Virus record (IMG/VR): IMGVR_UViG_3300030117_004863 | Coordinates: 1 to 22,575 of that record | Source of the DNA: a virus | Length of the DNA stretch: 22,575 bases | Direction: 5' to 3' (one strand) | Part shown: one piece after another, positions 11,815 through 21,223 of the stretch | How the letters are laid out: each line of letters opens with the position of its first letter | How positions within the stretch are numbered: the first letter of the stretch is position 1 | Notes under the pieces: generated by a model | Databases searched by the model: none | What the model was told of the DNA's origin: nothing | Seen by the model: only the letters and a program-made list of their open reading frames with translations | Position numbers and translations under genes: made by a program

Positions 11815-12536
11815 AGATCATCTCCTTTCTCTTTTAGTCCTCCACCACAAACCTCATAATAGTTACAGTATTTAGGGTTACATTCCCATTTATATGCCGG
11901 AGCTATTCCAAGCTCGATAGGAGGATTTCCTTTTTTAAATATATCCTGCACATTATGCCAATACTCTTTGGCTTTTTGTATGTAGGATGTTCGTATTACT
12001 TTTTCTTTCATTCTTGAATTATCTTTGTTATAGTATAATAACGCAAGTTTCTTCAATTTGTTCCCAGTTTCTTCTTCATACCACCAACCATACGTTCCTA
12101 ATTGTATATTATAATTAACCGGTTGGTTAGGATCAGGACTTCTGCCAAATAGATTCTTCCACTTCCAAGCATTACAAGTTTTGATATCGTAAAGTGCATT
12201 GTCCTCTACGACAATAACATCTAGGAAACCTCGGACATTTACATCGGGTAGTCTTATCTCACGTTCTATCATTATTTGAGAACCATTAAGACTTGCATAC
12301 TCTATCAGTGCCTCTTGAATATCATTGTGAACAAGGTCTCCAAGTCTAAATAACCTCATTGTATTTTCGTCAATTTCTTTAGGTTCAATGTCGGCAACGT
12401 GTTGAAAGTAATGCTTTCGCATACACATACCAGAGGAGGAGGCGTGAAACCATTCCTCTTTCCCCTCGTATCTTTTCTTTTGATGAAGGTCATTATTTTT
12501 CCGCAACCAATCATCATATATCTTTTGAATGTTCAT
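11811..12536 (-). CDS. Cas4/RecB-like Fe-S exonuclease (241 aa)
   Basis: The sequence shows a RecB-family PD-(D/E)XK nuclease with an iron-sulfur cluster: C38 in SSSGMCMRKHYF, H70 in LGDLVHNDIQ, D106 in GFLDVI, D117-I-K119 in YDIKT, Q145xxxY149 in NIQLGTYGWW, and C219, C224, C230 near the C-terminus. One Cys before the core and three after it are the Cas4/AddB cluster layout. Such phage enzymes resect DNA ends for recombination or replication. The start is ATG 12536, with AGGA six bases upstream; the ATG at 12542 abuts that site and is unlikely. There is no Cas1, Cas2 or array nearby, so a CRISPR role is not supported. Confidence 0.88.
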   Translation of the reverse strand: MNIQKIYDDWLRKNNDLHQKKRYEGKEEWFHASSSGMCMRKHYFQHVADIEPKEIDENTMRLFRLGDLVHNDIQEALIEYASLNGSQIMIEREIRLPDVNVRGFLDVIVVEDNALYDIKTCNAWKWKNLFGRSPDPNQPVNYNIQLGTYGWWYEEETGNKLKKLALLYYNKDNSRMKEKVIRTSYIQKAKEYWHNVQDIFKKGNPPIELGIAPAYKWECNPKYCNYYEVCGGGLKEKGDDL

Positions 12537-12654: not shown

Positions 12655-12852
12655 TTATCTTTGCTCTAGAACTTCTTTGTTATCAGAGAATAGATTTATC
12701 TCTATGACCTCTCCAGACTCTGTCTTAACATGTATGGTTCTAAAGTATCTGTCTTTGGCAGAGATCGATTGCATTGTTATTGTCTTGTCCATCTCAATAG
12801 ACTCTACGTTATGTATGCTAACCTCTTGCCCTATTCCTAGTTGTAAGTTCAT
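12655..12852 (-). CDS. Small beta-rich protein (65 aa), unknown
   Basis: ATG at 12852 has AGGAA nearby upstream and overlaps the previous gene by 35 bases. The sequence alternates hydrophobic and polar residues (IGQEVSIHNVESIEM, RYFRTIHVKTESGEVIEINLF), which suggests a small beta-barrel or sandwich. No cysteines or catalytic motif are present. It is the last gene before the structured hairpin that separates it from the Cas4-like gene. Confidence 0.55.
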   Translation of the reverse strand: MNLQLGIGQEVSIHNVESIEMDKTITMQSISAKDRYFRTIHVKTESGEVIEINLFSDNKEVLEQR

Positions 12853-13063
12853 CTTGTTCCTTTCCTTTTTGATATTCTTCAGCCCACTTATCTAGTTCGG
12901 TATACTCTTCTGCTTCCGCTCTGAGTACGTGGTCAAGGGCCAAATTTAATCCATATATTTCAGCGTTGTAAAGTTCATTAGATGGGTTAGCATCGTAAAG
13001 CTCTTCTATACGCTGAACTTCTTTCTTTATTCTGTATTTTAGTTTGTTTAATACAGTAAACAT
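12818..13063 (-). CDS. Small helical protein (81 aa), unknown
   Basis: ATG at 13063 has AAGGA seven bases upstream and begins directly after the stop of the HNH gene. The protein looks all-helical with heptad-like charge patterns (LKYRIKKEVQRIEELY, then ALDHVLRAEAEEYTELDKW), so a short coiled coil or helical hairpin is likely. It ends with a basic RNRARG tail. Function is unknown. Confidence 0.55.
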   Translation of the reverse strand: MFTVLNKLKYRIKKEVQRIEELYDANPSNELYNAEIYGLNLALDHVLRAEAEEYTELDKWAEEYQKGKEQDELTTRNRARG

Positions 13064-13600
13064 TTAATTATCCTTTTCTTTGTTGTAGTTATAACGAACC
13101 TCACTATAAGAAAGTTCCATATTTTTTTCATATTCTTTTATCATTGTCTGTATGTCCTTATAGTAATCATAGTCCTTGTATGTTTTTATTTTGTGGCAGT
13201 TACGACATCGCACTTCACATTTATCTATCTCTGCTTTAATTGTACTCCATTTATACCCAGCCCTTACCATGTAAGATACACCCTCTGTCCTATAAAACTT
13301 TTTCTTAATTCCTCTAACATGGTCGAACTCCAAAACTCGATGGTCTTTTGTACCGCAATCAACACAACCTTTGACAAAGTAAAGATAAAGAACTTTCTCG
13401 TAATTCTCTGCTTGCAAGCGAGCCTTTCTTTTCGCCATGTGCTTTATTCTTTTTTCTCTGTTCTTTACATACCATTCTTTATTATGATAATTCCTCTGAC
13501 ATATCTTACACATATACTGCCTGCCATCGGGCTTTTGTCTATTGCGGTAGAAATCTGTTTTAGGTTTTTCTTCTTTGCACTTACAACATTTCTTTAACAT
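13064..13600 (-). CDS. HNH endonuclease with N-terminal zinc-binding module (178 aa)
   Basis: The N-terminal 35 residues hold CCKCKEEK and MCKICQ, a CxxC pair set of a small zinc finger. After a basic helix, the HNH core reads GCVDCG, then LEFDHVRG, then IKAEIDKCEVRCRNCH. It contains the first His (FDH), a structural zinc CxxC pair on each side, and the final NCH. Proteins of this build are typically free-standing phage HNH nucleases, some mobile and some acting near DNA packaging. Here it sits inside the early operon behind the methyltransferase. The ribosome binding site is weak (GAGG ten bases upstream). Confidence 0.85.
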   Translation of the reverse strand: MLKKCCKCKEEKPKTDFYRNRQKPDGRQYMCKICQRNYHNKEWYVKNREKRIKHMAKRKARLQAENYEKVLYLYFVKGCVDCGTKDHRVLEFDHVRGIKKKFYRTEGVSYMVRAGYKWSTIKAEIDKCEVRCRNCHKIKTYKDYDYYKDIQTMIKEYEKNMELSYSEVRYNYNKEKDN

Positions 13601-15053: not shown

Positions 15054-15239
15054 TTATTTATAATTGATGCACGACTTATCTTTAGAGCTTGAAGTCCATT
15101 CATGCCCCTTACTACATTTGTAGTCTGTCCATGTTACTTGGCCACTATGTCTCCCTCTACTCCAAATAGTCTGCATGGCTGAATAACCTTTTTCTTTTTT
15201 CACGATAGTTACTTTACCATCACATCTCTGTTTTTTCAT
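15054..15239 (-). CDS. Small Cys/His-containing protein (61 aa), unknown
   Basis: ATG at 15239 follows AAGGAG and an A-rich leader. Promoter-like element 1 lies upstream at 15286-15317. The protein has C6, then YKCSKGHEW, then SCINYK near the end, so Cys/His residues could bind zinc. A Trp-rich central part (IWSRGRHSGQVTWTDYKC) looks beta-stranded. No family was recognised. Confidence 0.6.
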   Translation of the reverse strand: MKKQRCDGKVTIVKKEKGYSAMQTIWSRGRHSGQVTWTDYKCSKGHEWTSSSKDKSCINYK

Positions 15240-15285: not shown

Positions 15286-15317
15286 ATTAAACGCACCAAG
15301 TTTCAAAAAGTTCCAAA
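15286..15317 (-). promoter_or_regulatory. Promoter-like element 1
   Basis: On the minus strand TTGGAA (15311-15316) is followed by 19 bases and TTTAAT (15286-15291). The TTGGAAC end overlaps the last codons of the 153-residue gene; the next gene starts at 15239. A 21-bp part is identical to element 2. Confidence 0.7.
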
Positions 15318-15318
15318 T
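15298..15318. repeat. 21-bp repeat in promoter element 1
   Basis: Identical to 15821-15841 over 21 bases, covering the TTGGAACT box and half of the spacer. It suggests a recent duplication of the promoter module. Confidence 0.9.
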
Positions 15319-15764
15319 GTATTTTTTACTCTTCTAGCAAAATCTTTCTTTGCTAGTCTTTCAGAATCTAACTTTCTTCTAGCAACGTCTTCTTCTTCTA
15401 TTTGTTCAAAAAATTCACAAAGTGTTTTCTCATTAACATTATTAGCATCAAAAAGTTTTTCTATATGCCTAACATATCTATTAAAAGTACCTTTTAGATT
15501 TTGAAAATTTCTAGTAGCATATACTTGATATTCTTCATCCCACCAAATTTCTATATAATATGTTGGATTAACATATTTAGGATTGCTATGAACACCTACT
15601 TCTGGTTCATAGTCAATATGTTTAAAATCAATGCTAATATCATTTACATCTGGAAGATTTAAATCAAATGCTATGTATTCACAATCAAATACACTACAAT
15701 ATTCATCCCACTTTGATCTAGATAAATCTGGATTCCACTTGTATTTACCATGTTTAACTTTCAT
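15303..15764 (-). CDS. Unknown protein (153 aa), single-gene unit
   Basis: ATG at 15764 has AGGAG five bases upstream in an A-rich leader. Element 2 lies about 45 bases further up. The protein has an acidic, aromatic first half (DEYCSVFDCEYIAFDLNLPD; YYIEIWWDEEYQVYATRNF) and a helical basic C-terminal half (ARRKLDSERLAKKDFARRVK). Its stop lies within element 1. No family was recognised, and no catalytic motif is evident. Confidence 0.65.
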   Translation of the reverse strand: MKVKHGKYKWNPDLSRSKWDEYCSVFDCEYIAFDLNLPDVNDISIDFKHIDYEPEVGVHSNPKYVNPTYYIEIWWDEEYQVYATRNFQNLKGTFNRYVRHIEKLFDANNVNEKTLCEFFEQIEEEDVARRKLDSERLAKKDFARRVKNTFGTF

Positions 15765-15808
15765 TATTTCTCCTTTTTTTGTGGCACTTTTTTTGTGTGC
15801 CGTTTACT

Positions 15809-15840
15809 CTTATACGCTCTAAGTTTCAAAAAGTTCCAAA
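15809..15840 (-). promoter_or_regulatory. Promoter-like element 2
   Basis: On the minus strand TTGGAA (15834-15839) is followed by 19 bases and TATAAG (15809-15814). The spacer has AACT repeated ten bases after the AACT of the box, as in elements 1, 3 and 7. It lies upstream of the 153-residue gene. Confidence 0.7.
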
Positions 15841-15841
15841 T
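15821..15841. repeat. 21-bp repeat in promoter element 2
   Basis: Second copy of the 21-bp repeat found at 15298-15318. Confidence 0.9.
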
Positions 15842-15854
15842 TAATTTTTCTCTC

Positions 15855-16151
15855 CTATTTATTTTTCTGATTAAAAACGTGATATACCTCAACATGAGTA
15901 TTGCAATTATTATTGGAGCAAGAAAAGTTTGATACGATCCCTTCGTCTAACTCATCCTCATACAATTCTTGTATATCGTGGTCTCCTCCCCATATAAGCT
16001 CTGACCTGCATTGCCAACATCGAAAGGTGAACATGTCATTCTGGTCATAGGAATCAATCACGTTCTTCAATTCTCTTATCTTCTCTTCCCTTCTTTCCAC
16101 CATCTGCTCGTATCGAATGACCTCTAATTGCAATTCTATGTGATCTTTCAC
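15855..16151 (-). CDS. Coiled-coil plus zinc-finger phage protein (98 aa)
   Basis: The start is taken as GTG 16151 because it overlaps the previous stop as GTGA and has GGAG six bases upstream; a TTG at 16163 lacks a ribosome binding site. Residues about 1-40 form a charged helix likely to coil (MVERREEKIRELKNVIDSY). A zinc-binding unit follows: FRCWQCRSELIWGGDHD, then FSCSNNNCNTHVEVY, with four Cys and a GGDHD loop. I know this CxxC-SELIWGGDHD style from many phage small proteins. Function is unknown, probably nucleic-acid or protein binding. Confidence 0.75.
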   Translation of the reverse strand: MKDHIELQLEVIRYEQMVERREEKIRELKNVIDSYDQNDMFTFRCWQCRSELIWGGDHDIQELYEDELDEGIVSNFSCSNNNCNTHVEVYHVFNQKNK

Positions 16152-16279
16152 TTTCCTCTCCAATCATTAATTGCATAGATCACCATACTTATGATAAGCA
16201 TTGCTATTGAGAAAGCCACAAGGCTCATAGAAAGTATTAAGATGTTCACAAGTATCTCTGATATATCAAGGAGTATCAT
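16148..16279 (-). CDS. Single-pass membrane microprotein (43 aa)
   Basis: This gene is below usual length cut-offs. ATG at 16279 overlaps the previous stop (ATGA), and its own stop overlaps the next start (GTGA). The product is almost entirely one hydrophobic helix (ILVNILILSMSLVAFSIAML and on to MVIYAI) with a short charged end (NDWRGK). A holin-like, superinfection-exclusion or host-membrane-modulating role is possible but unproven. Confidence 0.6.
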   Translation of the reverse strand: MILLDISEILVNILILSMSLVAFSIAMLIISMVIYAINDWRGK

Positions 16280-16455
16280 TTTTCCCTCTTCTTTTTTCCC
16301 ATTACATACGTCATTTTTCCTATAGTTATATCTACCCTATCTGAGAGCGTATTGTCTACAAAATCAATCGAACGAATGCTATCGTCCAGAAAAGCGAAGA
16401 TTTGTAGTTCTGGATCGCATTTCTGAAGAGTTTTTATTAATTCATGGACTTTCAT
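16276..16455 (-). CDS. Small protein (59 aa), unknown
   Basis: ATG at 16455 overlaps the previous stop (ATGA) with AGGAG upstream in the end of that gene. The sequence MKVHELIKTLQKCDPELQIF looks like the start of a short phage protein in which a helix ends with a DPE turn before a beta strand. It continues with FLDDSIRSIDFVDN and a basic tail KKKREK. DPxxxVxxxxD-type small phage proteins are common, but function is unknown. Confidence 0.65.
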   Translation of the reverse strand: MKVHELIKTLQKCDPELQIFAFLDDSIRSIDFVDNTLSDRVDITIGKMTYVMGKKKREK

Positions 16456-16595
16456 TTTTCCTCCTTGAGTTTCTTAATTTCGGTTTTAATAAACCATCTC
16501 ATTAAATAATGGTAAGCAAGATGTAGTATTGCGAGATACACCACAATAAAAACATCGAATCCATTTTCTGACAAAGATTGCAACCAATGTATCAT
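16452..16595 (-). CDS. Single-pass membrane microprotein (47 aa)
   Basis: ATG at 16595 overlaps the previous stop (ATGA), and its stop overlaps the next start. A hydrophobic stretch FDVFIVVYLAILHLAYHYLM spans one membrane pass. It is followed by a basic tail (RWFIKTEIKKLKEEK) that would face the cytoplasm by the positive-inside rule. It is a second membrane microgene within 450 bases of the first. Function is unknown. Confidence 0.65.
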   Translation of the reverse strand: MIHWLQSLSENGFDVFIVVYLAILHLAYHYLMRWFIKTEIKKLKEEK

Positions 16596-16693
16596 TCTTC
16601 CTCCTCATTCCAAGTATCACAATGCTCTAAACATTCTGTACAAATATTGTAATCTGTGTGGACTTCTGCACCACAACATTCTGATCTATTCAT
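16592..16693 (-). CDS. Zinc-ribbon-like microprotein (33 aa)
   Basis: ATG at 16693 follows directly after the previous stop, with AAGGA seven bases upstream. The 33 residues include ECCGAEV, then NICTECLEHCDTW, then an acidic EEEE end. Two cysteine pairs separated by 11 residues look like a minimal zinc ribbon of the type common among small phage proteins. Its stop overlaps the next start (ATGA). Confidence 0.65.
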   Translation of the reverse strand: MNRSECCGAEVHTDYNICTECLEHCDTWNEEEE

Positions 16694-16864
16694 TTATTTA
16701 TCCTTTGCATTTGCGATGTGCCAAGCATCTATTATTCTAGCCATCATGTCCACGTTTATCTTATACTCCTCCATCAAGTGACCACATAACTCGTTCAACT
16801 CATCATCCAAATCGTTAAACAAAGCATCTGCTAGTTCGTCAAATATCATTTCGTTTGTGTCCAT
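16694..16864 (-). CDS. Small acidic helical protein (56 aa)
   Basis: ATG at 16864 has AGGAG six bases upstream and lies 26 bases inside the end of the upstream gene. The protein is acidic and helical (MDTNEMIFDELADALFNDLD; LMEEYKINVDMMARIIDAW). No motif or family was recognised. The next gene begins with the base after its stop. Confidence 0.65.
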   Translation of the reverse strand: MDTNEMIFDELADALFNDLDDELNELCGHLMEEYKINVDMMARIIDAWHIANAKDK

Positions 16865-17189
16865 TATCCTCTCCTTTTTGTTTGTATGTTCTTATCATTG
16901 CAAGTAGTAGCAACAAATAATTTATGATGTCGCTTATCCTGCCCTCAATACTTTCTGAGTACGTTTTTCCTTCTTTCAAATAGTTAAATACACTACTTGT
17001 ATGCTTTAGCAAATATACAGAAAGTACCTTCATTGGTGATAGTCCTAATGTTTTTCCTATATTCTCGAAGTTCCACAAAACATTTAATTCGTGGTGTCCT
17101 TCTGTATACTCAATGCGTTTGTCATCTGAAAGTTTGAGAGTTTTCTTGAGAAAATCCTCTCTCATAAATTGATATTCTTTAGCTGTCAT
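16839..17189 (-). CDS. All-helical MazG/DUF1599-like phage protein (116 aa)
   Basis: The sequence contains FLKKTLKLSDDKRIEYTEG, a His/Trp-rich link (HHELNVLWNFENIGKTLGL), then MKVLSVYLLKHTSSV and EGRISDIINYLLLLLAMI. The order K..DYxxG, NF, a helix starting at the KH, and EGRxxDxxNYxLL resembles phage helical proteins related to MazG-type NTP pyrophosphohydrolases or nucleotide-modification associated domains. The Glu/Asp pair in the last helix could bind a metal. Activity is not established. It overlaps the upstream gene by 11 bases. Confidence 0.6.
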   Translation of the reverse strand: MTAKEYQFMREDFLKKTLKLSDDKRIEYTEGHHELNVLWNFENIGKTLGLSPMKVLSVYLLKHTSSVFNYLKEGKTYSESIEGRISDIINYLLLLLAMIRTYKQKGEDNGHKRNDI

Positions 17190-17448
17190 ATTTCCTCCTT
17201 TCTAGGTAAATATCATCTGCATCTAGCTTTGCTACATTGAATAGTTTTAACGCTTCTTTTTTAGTGTAGATATGTTCATATATATCTGAGAAAGAATCTT
17301 GTTCGTCATTAAAAGAAATGCGAATATCATAATAATGATTTCTGTTATCAAAAAACTCCTTATCATTTTTGTCAATTGAATAAAGTAAGATTGATACATA
17401 ATAACCACTATTAGGCATTGTCTCTGAGTGTATTACATCTTGTAGCAT
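17179..17448 (-). CDS. Unknown acidic protein (89 aa)
   Basis: ATG at 17448 has AGGAG eight bases upstream. The first half is beta-rich (NSGYYVSILLYSIDKND) and the middle is acidic (ISFNDEQDSFSDIYEHIYTK), followed by helices. The C-terminal YLERRKYDS overlaps the next gene. No family was recognised. Confidence 0.6.
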   Translation of the reverse strand: MLQDVIHSETMPNSGYYVSILLYSIDKNDKEFFDNRNHYYDIRISFNDEQDSFSDIYEHIYTKKEALKLFNVAKLDADDIYLERRKYDS

Positions 17449-17467
17449 TTTCTATACTCCTTTTTCA

Positions 17468-17659
17468 TTAATCTAAGTTCCTTTCTTCAAAGTATAGATT
17501 CATTTCTTGTCTATACCAATCACTTGTAGAGTTTGGGTCATTTATGAAACTTGCTATTATCTCACAAAAGTCTTTCCTCTTTAGTTTGCAGTTTTCAATG
17601 TCAAGTTCAAAGAACATCATCACATCGTTCTTATCTACTTTCTTTAGTGGTAGCTTCAT
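17468..17659 (-). CDS. Small protein (63 aa), unknown
   Basis: ATG at 17659 follows GGGGAAGAG and lies inside the end of the 44-residue gene (29-base overlap). The sequence MKLPLKKVDKNDVMMFFELD leads into a helix with two cysteines (NCKLKRKDFCEIIASF) and ends in a Trp/Tyr-rich segment. Nothing points to a function. Confidence 0.6.
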   Translation of the reverse strand: MKLPLKKVDKNDVMMFFELDIENCKLKRKDFCEIIASFINDPNSTSDWYRQEMNLYFEERNLD

Positions 17660-17765
17660 TACTCTTCCCCTTTTTATTTCGTTTTAAATTCTCCCTAATT
17701 CGTGCTAAAAACTCCTCAGCACCCTTGTAACCCATCTCGGTCACTAACGCTTTTATCTTTCCCAT
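17631..17765 (-). CDS. Small basic protein (44 aa), first gene of a ten-gene unit
   Basis: ATG at 17765 has AGGAG six bases upstream. Element 3 lies 22 bases further up. The product (MGKIKALVTEMGYKGAEEFL, then a Lys/Arg-rich helix) is short and basic; a helical nucleic-acid or protein binder is possible. Its coding frame overlaps the next gene by 29 bases. No family was recognised. Confidence 0.6.
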   Translation of the reverse strand: MGKIKALVTEMGYKGAEEFLARIRENLKRNKKGKSNEATTKESR

Positions 17766-17786
17766 TTATTACTCCTTTGTTTATTA

Positions 17787-17818
17787 GTTATACGAGGTTA
17801 GTTCGTATTAGTTCCAAT
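17787..17818 (-). promoter_or_regulatory. Promoter-like element 3
   Basis: On the minus strand TTGGAA (17812-17817), 19 bases, TATAAC (17787-17792). AACT recurs ten bases after the box AACT. It precedes the ten-gene unit that runs from 17765 to 15855. Confidence 0.75.
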
Positions 17819-17824
17819 TTATTT

Positions 17825-18244
17825 TTAATAATTTTGATGTCCATGTAATTCCATGTGGCAGTTAGCACATAGGCTTATACATTTCTTTATCTCAGCAAAT
17901 ATCTTTTTTAGTCCAAATCCATCACGTATCATGTTGCCTACGTTTGCTTCTTTTGTGGAATCGTGATGATGAAATTGCAATGCCCACGTTGAGAACTTTT
18001 TACCTCTTGTCTTTTTAGAATAGCCACAACTTTTACAACTCAGCTTTTCCTTGTACTCTCTAACTATTCTAGCTTTCTCCATCCTTCCGTTAGGTGTTCT
18101 CTTTTTGTGAGACCAATAGCATCCGTGCTTGGTGCAGTAGTACCTTCTGTATGGATTACCCGATTTGTCAAACATACCTGTTTTAGCAAACTCTGATAGA
18201 TCCATACTAGAATTACATCCTTTACAAGTTCTTGTCTTTGTCAT
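17825..18244 (-). CDS. HNH endonuclease with N-terminal zinc-binding module (139 aa)
   Basis: The N-terminus has TCKGCNSSMD and YYCTKHGCYW, a Cys-based finger. A basic linker (HKKRTPNGRMEKARIVREYK) follows, and the HNH core reads SCKSCG, ALQFHHHD, then IKKCISLCANCHMELHGH. The paired Cys of the core and the final NCH agree with the enzyme at 13064-13600, so the two are distant paralogues. It is the third gene of the unit behind element 4, and its start overlaps the previous stop by one base (TAATG). It is probably a mobile or DNA-processing nuclease. Confidence 0.85.
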   Translation of the reverse strand: MTKTRTCKGCNSSMDLSEFAKTGMFDKSGNPYRRYYCTKHGCYWSHKKRTPNGRMEKARIVREYKEKLSCKSCGYSKKTRGKKFSTWALQFHHHDSTKEANVGNMIRDGFGLKKIFAEIKKCISLCANCHMELHGHQNY

Positions 18245-18534
18245 TACTCTTGCTCCTCTTCAAATTTCTGATGAGCCATAATGCTTTGAGCCACCTCATA
18301 GAAATTGACCTCTTTTATAGAACTATTTATCATATCAGAAATAAATCCGTATACACAACTACAATCATCAGCCATTTCAATCGCCCACTCTTCCAACTTT
18401 TTACTGAGGTCGTACCTATTTTCACAATCCTCTGCAAGTTTTAAAGCGTAATTGTAATCCTCCTCATCGTTTGTAATCCACAAATTAAAATTCCAAGTCT
18501 CATAATTTGTCCATCCGTTGTATTTGTTACTCAT
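18244..18534 (-). CDS. DUF7249-like protein (96 aa)
   Basis: The sequence KYNGWTNYETWNFNLWITND is the recognisable opening of a small family found in phages and plasmids (NGWTNYxTWxxxLWxxND). The rest is helical and acidic (EEWAIEMADDCSCVYGF; INSSIKEVNFYEVAQSIM). Family function is unknown to me. Genes of this family are usually carried with other accessory genes, which fits here. The start overlaps the upstream gene by eight bases. Confidence 0.75.
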   Translation of the reverse strand: MSNKYNGWTNYETWNFNLWITNDEEDYNYALKLAEDCENRYDLSKKLEEWAIEMADDCSCVYGFISDMINSSIKEVNFYEVAQSIMAHQKFEEEQE

Positions 18535-18778
18535 TTGTTACTGCTCCTTTTTTATTTAGTTTATAATTGTATGTGTATGTGTTATTATTTAATTCCACGA
18601 TTTCAATATCATCAAATATCGTATATGTATTATCTGCAATTTCAAATATGAAATCTTTTAAATCATCCTGTTTAAGTTTTGTACGATAACAGTAATAATT
18701 GTTGTCATGGTCTATAATTACAGTTTTAGAATTACTAATTAAATGACTATTTATATCTCTTGTCTTTTGCATACTCAT
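18527..18778 (-). CDS. Small strand-rich protein (83 aa), unknown
   Basis: The frame extends up to a GTG at 18802. I take ATG 18778 as the start because AAAAAAGGA lies five bases upstream and belongs to the recurring leader. The protein has Asn/Tyr/Asp-rich strands (TVIIDHDNNYYCYRTKLKQD; DDIEIVELNNNTYTYNY) and ends basic. No motif was recognised. It is the first gene of the element 4 unit. Confidence 0.6.
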   Translation of the reverse strand: MSMQKTRDINSHLISNSKTVIIDHDNNYYCYRTKLKQDDLKDFIFEIADNTYTIFDDIEIVELNNNTYTYNYKLNKKGAVTNE

Positions 18779-18804
18779 GTCTATCCTTTTTTGTTTACTC
18801 ACTT

Positions 18805-18836
18805 ATATAACTACACTCTTAAAATAAAGTTCCAAA
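18805..18836 (-). promoter_or_regulatory. Promoter-like element 4
   Basis: On the minus strand TTGGAA (18830-18835), 19 bases, TTATAT (18805-18810). The TAA stop of the winged-helix gene directly abuts the TTTGGAAC box. The -10-like hexamer is the weakest of the set. Confidence 0.65.
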
Positions 18837-19031
18837 TTATTTTTTATTTAACTTTAAAAACCTTTTACCTAAAAATCTACACACCAGAACATCCCCATCT
18901 AAAACAAGCTGTTTGGTAGCTGTTACAATATCCTCTCTTGACTCTCCCAAATCTCTTGCTACTTGCAACATGCTTATGCTACCATTGTTGTCTGTCTGTT
19001 TTTTATACATCCCTAATAATATTTTTTTCAC
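18837..19031 (-). CDS. Small winged-helix DNA-binding-type protein (64 aa)
   Basis: The frame extends further to a TTG at 19073, but GTG 19031 has GGGAG seven bases upstream in the recurring leader, so I use it. The sequence GSISMLQVARDLGESREDIV, followed by KQLVLDGDVLVCRFLGKRFLKL, is typical of a winged helix-turn-helix: helix 2, recognition helix, then a two-strand wing. It is a stand-alone single domain with no sensor. Its own promoter element and location within the promoter array make it a candidate regulator of that array. That role is inferred. Confidence 0.6.
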   Translation of the reverse strand: MKKILLGMYKKQTDNNGSISMLQVARDLGESREDIVTATKQLVLDGDVLVCRFLGKRFLKLNKK

Positions 19032-19061
19032 TCTTTTACTCCCTTTTTTTGTTTTATATAT

Positions 19062-19093
19062 ACTATACACCAAAGATTTAAATAAGTTCCAAA
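19062..19093 (-). promoter_or_regulatory. Promoter-like element 5
   Basis: On the minus strand TTGGAA (19087-19092), 19 bases, TATAGT (19062-19067). The TAA stop of the 114-residue gene directly abuts the box. It precedes the winged-helix gene. Confidence 0.7.
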
Positions 19094-19438
19094 TTAATTA
19101 TTTTTTTTTCTGTACTCCCAATTTGCTTTTAACTTCACAGATTTTATATACTTATTCTTACTCCAATTTTCTGCTTCTTCAAATGTTTTGAAATATTCCA
19201 TCTTATCACAATTATAATAATAGTATTTCTCTTTCCCACAAATAATAGGCTTAATTATCTTATACCCGTAATCTTCAAAATCATAATCTATCGTGCCAAT
19301 GTGTTGTCTGTATTGATCATAGCAAGATTTAGCATAGAGTTTATATTCTCCCATTGTTCCGAAATTTTTATTACTTCTTCCTTCCTCACTCCACTTGATA
19401 CTATCAATCTTGCTCTGTATAAACTTATCTCTTGTCAC
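19094..19438 (-). CDS. Unknown basic/aromatic protein (114 aa), GTG start
   Basis: The start is GTG at 19438, with GGGAG seven bases upstream, overlapping the previous stop (GTGA). The protein is rich in Lys/Tyr (MGEYKLYAKSCYDQYRQH; KEKYYYYNCDKMEYFKTF). It ends with a short helix FKTFEEAENWSKNKY that looks like a small phage beta-beta-alpha motif around a CDKxEYFKTFEEA turn. No established family. Confidence 0.6.
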   Translation of the reverse strand: MTRDKFIQSKIDSIKWSEEGRSNKNFGTMGEYKLYAKSCYDQYRQHIGTIDYDFEDYGYKIIKPIICGKEKYYYYNCDKMEYFKTFEEAENWSKNKYIKSVKLKANWEYRKKNN

Positions 19439-19602
19439 TTTTTTACTCCCTTTTTTGTCTTGTCGTAAACCTTTTGAAATTTGTTAGCTAAAATTCTTGA
19501 GTCTATATCGCTAACTTTTTGACCCTTACGATTAAATTTTATTATACAAATCTTTAAAGCTTTTTTAATTAATTGTAAATCTTTTTTACTAATATTATTC
19601 AC
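19435..19602 (-). CDS. Small basic protein with GTG start (55 aa)
   Basis: This gene is short and starts with GTG 19602; GGGAG lies ten bases upstream and element 6 is just above. The sequence is helical and Lys-rich (NNISKKDLQLIKKALKICII; DIDSRILANKFQKVYDK). Its last codons (TKKGVKK) are encoded by the same A-rich leader motif that serves as ribosome binding site for the next gene, so coding and leader functions overlap. Confidence 0.55.
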   Translation of the reverse strand: MNNISKKDLQLIKKALKICIIKFNRKGQKVSDIDSRILANKFQKVYDKTKKGVKK

Positions 19603-19635
19603 TTATTTTTTACTCCCTTTTTTGTTTTGTTACTA

Positions 19636-19667
19636 GTTATATGTTTATTTATTTAATTAGTTCCAAA
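19636..19667 (-). promoter_or_regulatory. Promoter-like element 6
   Basis: On the minus strand TTGGAA (19661-19666), 19 bases, TATAAC (19636-19641). It drives the 55- and 114-residue genes. Confidence 0.75.
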
Positions 19668-19676
19668 TTATTTTAT

Positions 19677-19709
19677 TCCCCTAAAGGGGATGTATTAAAC
19701 ACCCCCTTT
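19677..19709 (-). terminator. Alternative hairpins downstream of the 62-aa gene
   Basis: AAAGGGG (19683-19689) pairs with CCCCTTT (19703-19709). The same G-run can instead pair in TCCCC/GGGGA (19677-19681 with 19686-19690). The two stems exclude each other. The first begins about 12 bases after the stop of the 62-residue gene. No T-run follows, so a terminator or processing site is only likely. Confidence 0.4.
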
Positions 19710-19727
19710 AATTTCTGTAAGTTAGTT
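19707..19727. repeat. 21-bp repeat at a gene end, copy 1
   Basis: Identical over 21 bases to 19928-19948. It holds the last Asn codon, the stop TAA and the start of the 3' region of the 62-residue gene (minus strand ACTTACAG core). Confidence 0.9.
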
Positions 19728-19910
19728 TGTTTCTGTGTATCTTACCCATTCTCCATCTATGGGCAAATTATTTATTCTTTTTTCTGTGCTTGAGTAGATT
19801 TCTGCATAATCTTTTAATTTGTCTGAATTAATTTGATTTGTAGTCATCCACCCTTCGTTATTATTCCAATATAAATTTTTATCAGATACACACCTTATAA
19901 TCCATTTCAT
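19722..19910 (-). CDS. Small Trp-rich protein (62 aa), unknown
   Basis: ATG at 19910 has a distant GAGGG. A six-codon reading frame just upstream ends inside the start codon region and could help coupling. The protein contains YWNNNEGWMTTNQINSDK and PIDGEWVRYTETN, a small beta-stranded protein. Its end and 3' flank are duplicated at the neighbouring gene. No family was recognised. Confidence 0.55.
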   Translation of the reverse strand: MKWIIRCVSDKNLYWNNNEGWMTTNQINSDKLKDYAEIYSSTEKRINNLPIDGEWVRYTETN

Positions 19911-19927
19911 TTTATTTTTTCCCTCAT

Positions 19928-19948
19928 TTTAATTTCTGTAAGTTAGTT
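19928..19948. repeat. 21-bp repeat at a gene end, copy 2
   Basis: Same 21 bases as 19707-19727, here covering the end and stop of the 95-residue gene. A similar ACTTACAG-containing stretch lies on the opposite strand at about 20834-20850. Confidence 0.9.
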
Positions 19949-20230
19949 ACGACTCAAGATTAGATTGTTTCCTGTAAATTCGTATGTTTTTCCGTTGTAA
20001 TCTGCAAACCATTCATAATTCTTTTGGTACACTTGAAACCCTAAGCCAAAAGCATTTGAAGTTTGATTCATTCTCGTTTTGGTTGTTGGTGTAAACCAAC
20101 CCCCCGTATATAGCATAATTACATTTTCTGAAAACGCTACAACTCTAGTGTTGTGATACTTTACATAAGTTATTTCGTTTTCTGTAAACACTTTTGTTTT
20201 GTGTGTTCCAATTTTATTTTGTTGTGCCAT
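19943..20230 (-). CDS. Conserved phage protein with GGWxTPTTKxRMNQ motif (95 aa)
   Basis: The sequence FTENEITYVKYHNTRVVAF, then IMLYTGGWFTPTTKTRMNQT, then FGLGFQVYQKNYEWFADYN is a recognisable phage family layout. It reads KYHNTxVVxF, GGWxTxTTKxRMNQ, VYQKxxxW and is all beta except for a short helix. Function is unknown to me. ATG at 20230 follows CGGAG and an A-rich leader. Two promoter-like elements (7 and 8) lie upstream, so it may be strongly expressed. Confidence 0.75.
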   Translation of the reverse strand: MAQQNKIGTHKTKVFTENEITYVKYHNTRVVAFSENVIMLYTGGWFTPTTKTRMNQTSNAFGLGFQVYQKNYEWFADYNGKTYEFTGNNLILSRN

Positions 20231-20260
20231 GTTTTACTCCGTTTTTTTGTTTTGTTACTT

Positions 20261-20292
20261 GTTATACTCTCCGAGTTGCGGAAAGTTCCAAA
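20261..20292 (-). promoter_or_regulatory. Promoter-like element 7
   Basis: On the minus strand TTGGAA (20286-20291), 19 bases, TATAAC (20261-20266). AACT recurs ten bases on. It is closest to the 95-residue gene. Confidence 0.75.
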
Positions 20293-20315
20293 GTTTTTTT
20301 TAATGATTATATTAT

Positions 20316-20347
20316 TATATACTATTATTATTTGGTTTTGTTCCAAT
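20316..20347 (-). promoter_or_regulatory. Promoter-like element 8
   Basis: On the minus strand TTGGAA (20341-20346), 19 bases, TATATA (20316-20321). It abuts the TAA of the 67-residue gene and lies 55 bases above element 7, forming a tandem pair. Its box ends in ACA instead of ACT. Confidence 0.65.
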
Positions 20348-20550
20348 TAATTATCTTTAGGGTTTAATTTATCTTCATACAGCCATAAATGAAGTAATTC
20401 ATTATCGTTTTTAGTCAACAGTCTTTGAATATCCGAGTATAGTTTATGTCCTTCAGACCTCGGATATATATCAAAATCAACGAAATCGTTTTCAACTAAA
20501 AAGTGAGTAGTTTTAGATAATAGCTGAATCATTTTTATAATATCTTTCAT
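20347..20550 (-). CDS. First leftward gene: small protein (67 aa), unknown
   Basis: ATG at 20550 follows AAGGA in an A-rich leader, with element 9 upstream. The protein is helical (MKDIIKMIQLLSKTTHFLVE; EGHKLYSDIQRLLTKNDNEL) with a charged C-terminus. As the first gene beside the control region it would be transcribed earliest if transcription starts there. No family was recognised. Confidence 0.6.
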   Translation of the reverse strand: MKDIIKMIQLLSKTTHFLVENDFVDFDIYPRSEGHKLYSDIQRLLTKNDNELLHLWLYEDKLNPKDN

Positions 20551-20576
20551 TTTATTTCCTTTTTGGTTGCTTACTT

Positions 20577-20608
20577 ATTAAATGCATTTATCGAACAATA
20601 GTTCCAAT
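20577..20608 (-). promoter_or_regulatory. Promoter-like element 9
   Basis: On the minus strand TTGGAA (20602-20607), 19 bases, TTTAAT (20577-20582). It precedes the first leftward gene and lies at the edge of the control region. Confidence 0.7.
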
Positions 20609-20877: not shown

Positions 20878-21035
20878 CGGCTTATAGTGGATTTGCTTTT
20901 TTCAATACAACTTTTCTAACCTAGAAACGGATAGGGGGGTGGTATGTGTGTAAAAAAAGAGACACGCACATGCTAATATAATTTTTTAAAATTTTTGGAA
21001 GTTTTACCAAAAGCGGGTACTGCGGATACTACCAC

Positions 21036-21160
21036 TACTATATATACTATAATACTATAATTACTATATACTACTATATACTATATATACTATTATACTA
21101 TATATATTATATATATATAATATATACTATATATACTATATATACTATAGTACTATTATA
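21036..21160. repeat. Low-complexity TATACTA array
   Basis: About 125 bases consist almost only of A, T and regularly spaced C/G in TACTATA-like units, with many self-complementary stretches. It would melt easily and could act as a DNA unwinding region. Confidence 0.8.
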
Positions 21161-21195
21161 AAAAAACTTCAACAAACAAAAACAAGATAATTAAA

Positions 21196-21223
21196 TATAT
21201 ATAACGCTAAACATTATTGTCAA
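21196..21223 (-). promoter_or_regulatory. Leftward sigma70-like promoter
   Basis: On the minus strand a perfect TTGACA (21218-21223) is followed after 16 bases by TATATA (21196-21201); TATATT at spacing 18 is an alternative. It differs from the nine TTGGAAC elements and would transcribe leftward through the TA-rich array. Confidence 0.55.

Follow-up and report, generated by a model that had tools for sequence, protein, structure and literature searches.

Predicted ECF-type early promoters, repeated between small genes, in a family of uncultured tailed phages

What reads a promoter-like module that recurs nine times on one strand of a phage genome, and why does this module stand between so many small genes? 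The question is raised by a 22,575-base virus fragment from IMG/VR (IMGVR_UViG_3300030117_004863; hereafter the window, i.e. the whole stretch of DNA that was analysed), whose plus strand carries the structural genes and whose minus strand is occupied by the early genes and those for replication. As a rule, phages leave the reading of their early genes to the host primary sigma factor or to an enzyme of their own. The sites considered here are probably the early promoters of a whole phage family; they would have the architecture of promoters of extracytoplasmic function (ECF) sigma factors of group 4, would likely be read by an ECF sigma factor of the host and would also act as points of gene exchange.

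An earlier note, made from the letters of the window, had described nine TTGGAAC-N18-TATA-like copies with fixed spacing on the minus strand. All nine are present, the hexamer beginning 25 bases past the first T of TTGGAAC, which is the higher coordinate of each interval in Table 1; the sites had been located correctly but each interval had been drawn one base too long at its upstream end. TTGGAAC occurs 17 times in the window and is accompanied by a TATA-like hexamer at this offset in nine cases, all on the minus strand, versus 0.2 on average and never more than 3 in 1000 block-wise dinucleotide shuffles of the window. The copies are thus far above chance, and the equal frequency in shuffled sequence that the note had named as fatal to its proposal is not what was found. 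A weight matrix trained on relatives only, the window and contigs nearly identical to it being left out, gives its highest scores in the window to eight of the nine copies (30–58 bits, with 8.3 bits for the best non-site), so that the motif search proposed in the note also speaks for the module. The remaining copy (copy 2 in Table 1) is at the background level of this strict matrix and is the least certain of the nine; it resembles a TTGGAACAA...TATAATAATATAA variant found in L052 and L055. The statement that the window holds no other full copy stands for TTGGAAC but not for the motif at large, as a probable tenth site was overlooked because of its ATGGAAC start and its 17-base spacer; similar N17 sites are found at its position in relatives. 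Another site (12035–12066) had been drawn into the iterated matrix but, being internal to the Cas4-like gene, was rejected as a coding coincidence.

The phages are tailed and make up an uncultured family, with PHROG 156 portals and genomes of about 40–45 kb. Their small terminase belongs to PHROG 51, and no similarity to a cultured phage was found for the large virion protein and the Cas4-like exonuclease of the window or for the portal from one close relative. Sixty-nine relatives were collected through the Cas4-like gene; terminal repeats of 51–141 bases are seen in three family records, and several of the 30 records searched for protein families (see below) are near complete.

In these relatives, TTGGAAC on the early strand has a conserved -10 at one offset (86 sites at 25 bases, 1 at 24 and 14 at 26). 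If only sites are counted that have a start codon and its ribosome site 20–80 bases further on, 195 clean sites are found on the early strand versus none on the late strand (68 sequences). The -35/-10 layout is therefore conserved on the early strand only, in line with the promoter-like module of invariant spacing that had been proposed. Removal of sites that are at least 80% alike leaves 63 non-redundant sites, whose counts are not independent since the relatives are related. All 63 contain GGAAC and only 73–75% have the preceding TT, so that the constant part is GGAAC and not TTGGAA, from which the spacing had originally been counted. It is usually followed by a T tract, then by an A tract and by a [C/A]GTATAA box, in which GT is the best conserved part (G in 94%, T in 98%), preceded by C or A in 89%; A is found at position -11 in 71%, and T at position -7 in 35%, which is the background. 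With the GGAAC columns left out of the search, 54 of the 58 sites found still have GGAAC, and with the -10 columns left out 55 of 63 still have GT, although the matrix had been seeded with GGAAC and these tests address that seeding only in part. Between GGAAC and CGT[AT], a spacing of 16 bases was counted 119 times and one of 17 bases 37 times, no other value occurring more than 7 times, and the distribution on the late strand is flat; many of the 17-base spacings are coding coincidences. The many N17 GGAAC–CGTTA matches within the PD-(D/E)XK gene were likewise discarded as coding and not promoter sites. A GGAAC variant with a 17-base spacer is present upstream of the DUF932 gene, or at the position of this gene, in L022, L025, L013 and L039, where it is the most upstream early promoter.

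In its two boxes, and in the distance between them, the motif agrees with published promoters of the ECF class. EcfG promoters read GGAAC-N16-CGTT with an almost invariant AAC triplet (PMC7083833), SigE promoters of Corynebacterium combine GGAAC with CGTT or AGTT (PMC10012870), and the -35 boxes of RpoE and SigW are GGAACTT and ATTGAAACCTTT, respectively (PMC8103513). The hint in the earlier note that GGAACT recalls ECF sigma factors was thus well founded, GGAAC-N16-CGT being the published signature of ECF (group 4) promoters. The sites share the GGAAC -35 box with the targets of EcfG in alphaproteobacteria, SigE in Corynebacterium and RpoE in E. coli (SigW in B. subtilis has GAAAC), the T tract after the -35 box with those of RpoE and SigW, and the 16–17 bases to CGT with those of EcfG and SigE; the near-invariant AAC and a stringent promoter set are also common to ECF promoters. 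Unlike in these systems, the sites would be the principal class of early promoters in a phage, and their -10 continues with ATAA, prefers CGTA over CGTT and has AGT nearly as often as CGT. No description of ECF-type early promoters of phages was found in the open literature searched.

Could the sites instead be ordinary early promoters for the host primary sigma70, with TTGGAAC as an extended -35 peculiar to the phage and with an A tract as UP element, as is often the case in virulent phages? The TATAA in the -10 of many copies and the A-rich upstream element would suit such promoters, the primary sigma factor is the usual reader of early genes in phages, and with the conserved TTGACA-N18-TATATT the phage has one canonical site as well. 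This explanation is nevertheless unlikely. The leading TT varies while GGAAC is invariant, and the spacing counted from TTGGAA would be 19. Furthermore, sigma70 melts DNA through the key bases A-11 and T-7 (PMC8103513), and the family sites have T-7 at background and the highly conserved G of the GT at -13. They lack a TTGACA-like -35 placed 16–18 bases from a TATAAT with conserved T-7 and combine a near-invariant AAC, a 16–17-base spacing and a GT box without T-7, as ECF promoters do. A generic sigma70 scan of the region yielded no excess of sites (34 vs 36 +/- 6). The sigma70-like -10 that the earlier note had seen is therefore not the conserved part of the box, which is [CA]GT, and the host promoter with an activator site that it had considered is disfavoured, as both boxes stand at ECF spacing.

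Outside the family, matches to the pattern are mostly single and near chance, the exception being a group of large phages. In its 101-kb representative G276, which is unrelated to the window, GGAAC, AGAAC or GAAAC boxes precede CGTATAAT at the same distance; the promoter type is therefore not unique to the family of the window. On one strand of this record (L184–L189; 101,743 bases) there are six or more [GA]AAC-N16-CGTATAAT promoters, and the record also encodes an RpoD-like sigma factor, a UvrD helicase with an intein and a ribonucleotide reductase.

Searches for sigma region 2 and with ECF models (PF04542, TIGR02937) gave no match in 30 family records; as a positive control, the sigma factor of an unrelated phage record scored 107.6 bits with the ECF models. 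A T7-type RNA polymerase (PF00940) was not matched in the 30 records, nor was it in the control set, and the two-box layout argues against a promoter for a single-subunit phage polymerase. As no sigma gene was detected in these records, a host ECF sigma factor would be the most likely reader. The sites might alternatively depend on a specificity factor encoded by the phage, either a diverged sigma factor or a protein redirecting host sigma70 to GGAAC. Such a factor would explain why the sites are confined to the early strand of one phage family, could be encoded by one of the many small early genes of unassigned function and would find a parallel in the sigma factor of RpoD type of G276. It is distinctly unlikely, given that the widely shared early proteins of ECF size all have other assignments (a Cas4-like exonuclease, an HNH endonuclease, a probable single-strand binding protein and a PD-(D/E)XK protein) and that the matches to sigma region 4 are weak. 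The latter, which three relatives show in their giant virion protein, cover only 25–30 model positions in a helical stretch and were set aside as spurious. In several members a GGAAC promoter precedes even DUF932, the early gene that lies farthest upstream, and a phage factor would therefore have to be injected or made earlier. In the middle promoters of T4, a non-canonical box replaces the -35 while the TATAAT -10 of sigma70 is kept, and the phage proteins MotA and AsiA are both needed. The family sites resemble them by the non-canonical box in the place of the -35, but an appropriation of this kind should leave T-7 in place; here T-7 is lost and no MotA- or AsiA-like protein was found.

Several points weigh against a host ECF sigma factor as reader. 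The assignment of the predicted promoters was made from sequence, and the -10, with CGTA preferred over the CGTT of EcfG and SigE, matches no particular known ECF group. A strongly diverged sigma factor or a protein binding RNA polymerase may exist among the small early genes, and early genes wholly dependent on a stress sigma factor would be unusual for a phage. The only cellular relative is L091 (DKQR01000126.1), a contig of a metagenome-assembled genome (MAG) of Candidatus Marinimicrobia that represents a piece of a distant family member; it is a doubtful indication, being either a lead to the host or a binning error. Marinimicrobia genomes show no excess of the pattern (26 vs 68 for the reversed control) or of a stricter one (0 vs about 12), and this phylum therefore lends no support to the host-sigma step. 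With one MAG contig, in 1 of 245 genomes, and no promoter enrichment, Marinimicrobia were not retained as host.

The distance between the T of the -10 and the start codon is rather constant (median 36 bases, 10–90% range 27–52 nt), and the sites always lie in sense direction between genes. This placement and the -35/-10 architecture make it very improbable that, instead of being promoters, they are bound by a repressor or an origin protein of the phage, as a conserved two-part motif repeated on one strand of a small-gene region might otherwise suggest. A comparable ambiguity is known from the start-associated sequences of cluster K mycobacteriophages, whose function was left open, promoter and operator both being considered (PMC3203893). 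These are also conserved repeats just upstream of small genes, located in one genome region and shared within a phage group; unlike them, the family sites have a clear ECF-type -35/-10 layout.

If the sites are indeed ECF-type promoters, early expression could be pictured as follows. The RNA polymerase of the host, associated with one of the host's ECF sigma factors, would recognize the GGAAC -35, usually followed by a T tract and an A-rich stretch, and the [C/A]GTATAA -10 at 16 (rarely 17) bases. Transcription would start about 12 bases past the T of the -10 and would give a short A-rich leader, a ribosome site and then the small gene. Homologous recombination between nearly identical promoters could insert, replace or remove single promoter–gene units, and a newly gained gene would stay under unchanged control through its promoter.

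The exchange of genes at the promoters can be followed in the relatives. For 198 promoters a downstream gene could be assigned, and these genes fall into 95 protein clusters; 13 different clusters are found behind a single core type (identity at 26 or more of 30 bases). L023, L025, L028, L076 and L078 share a zinc-finger gene and, 6 bases past its end, a promoter core, beyond which four different genes follow at equal distance. The order in the window is the zinc-finger gene, promoter copy A (15839), a rare 153-aa gene, promoter copy B (15316) and a 61-aa gene, the two copies being identical at 26 of 30 bases; in L028, the 61-aa gene comes directly after the zinc-finger gene and the promoter. 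The identity between the window and L028 is 97% from the promoter on, on the side of the 61-aa gene, and 78% in the zinc-finger gene. A 523-base promoter–gene unit (copy A to copy B), absent from L028 and L078, is thus inserted or exchanged with its edges at the promoters, probably by recombination between promoter copies. The array of promoter–leader–gene cassettes described in the earlier note is borne out by this extra unit and by the near-identical promoters that precede unrelated genes at a constant distance. There is no sign of structured leaders, which are short and without match in an Rfam search, and the terminator-like sites of the region (3 vs 1.6 expected) do not adjoin the promoters. 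Two related HNH endonuclease genes of the early region (17825–18244 and 13064–13600; PHROG 2255) are homing-type candidates that may drive gene exchange.

The early promoters of T4-type phages are read by host sigma70. These phages have promoter-early-stem-loop cassettes (PeSLs), in which, as far as they are summarized in PMC4503421 (citing Arbiol 2010 and Comeau 2014), repeated early promoters between small genes are junctions for the modular shuffling of uncharacterized genes. The family sites share with PeSLs the repeated promoter as a junction of gene shuffling, but they are of ECF type and no stem-loop or terminator adjoins them.

Tentatively, it may be proposed that the early programme of the whole family is under a host stress (ECF) sigma factor, infection being coupled to, or triggering, the envelope or general stress response, and that the promoters are the standard exchange sites of accessory genes. 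Dependence on an ECF sigma factor would tie infection to the stress state of the host and would give a clue to that host, which must then have an ECF sigma factor of GGAAC-N16-[C/A]GTA specificity. The phages would also possess a portable promoter unit with which to swap accessory, possibly anti-defence, genes.

Table 1. Predicted promoters and associated genes of the window (scores from the relatives-only matrix)
Feature	Position	Strand	Remarks
ECF-type promoter 1, TTGGAAC-N16-CATTTAAT	20577..20607	-	30.1 bits; upstream of 67-aa gene 20347-20550
Weak copy 2, TTGGAAC-N16-AGTATATAATAATATAA	20316..20346	-	7.9 bits; tandem with promoter 3, no gene between
ECF-type promoter 3, TTGGAAC-N16-AGTATAAC	20261..20291	-	54.1 bits; upstream of Kyano_Gp96-like gene 19943-20230
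ECF-type promoter 4, TTGGAAC-N16-CATATAAC	19636..19666	-	47.8 bits; upstream of genes 19435-19602 and 19094-19438
ECF-type promoter 5, TTGGAAC-N16-TGTATAGT	19062..19092	-	43.2 bits; upstream of gene 18837-19031
ECF-type promoter 6, TTGGAAC-N16-AGTTATAT	18805..18835	-	30.3 bits; upstream of 18527-18778, 18244-18534 (DUF7249) and 17825-18244 (HNH)
ECF-type promoter 7, TTGGAAC-N16-CGTATAAC	17787..17817	-	44.6 bits; upstream of gene 17631-17765 and the operon after it
ECF-type promoter 8, copy A of duplicated pair, TTGGAAC-N16-CGTATAAG	15809..15839	-	58.3 bits; upstream of 153-aa gene
ECF-type promoter 9, copy B, TTGGAAC-N16-CGTTTAAT	15286..15316	-	46.9 bits; upstream of 61-aa gene 15054-15239
Probable tenth promoter, ATGGAAC-N17-CGTTATAA	13089..13120	-	GGAAC 13118-13114, CGTTATAA 13096-13089; 31 bases before conserved 81-aa gene 12818-13063
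Best sigma70-type promoter of the region, TTGACA-N18-TATATT	21194..21223	-	divergent junction with late genes
153-aa cargo gene of extra promoter-gene unit	15303..15764	-	unit missing in L028 and L078
Zinc-finger-like gene	15855..16163	-	in L028 and L078 directly before promoter and 61-aa gene
61-aa gene	15054..15239	-	its side matches L028 at 97% from promoter on

The calls of very small genes are mechanical. The Kyano_Gp96-like gene downstream of promoter 3 encodes a 95-aa protein matching Pfam PF23790. In the nearer groups, most relatives keep the TTGACA of the sigma70-type site at the same location. The stretch that separates the late genes from the early promoters contains, in the window, an AT-rich tandem array of TACTATATA-type units (21036–21160), a possible origin or regulator array, and TAGTATA-rich stretches occupy the same place in most relatives. 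A non-coding block, TTTTAAAAAATTATATTAGCATGTG...TAGGTTAGAAAAGTTGTATTGAAAAA (about 20890–21010), is recognizable even in distant relatives.

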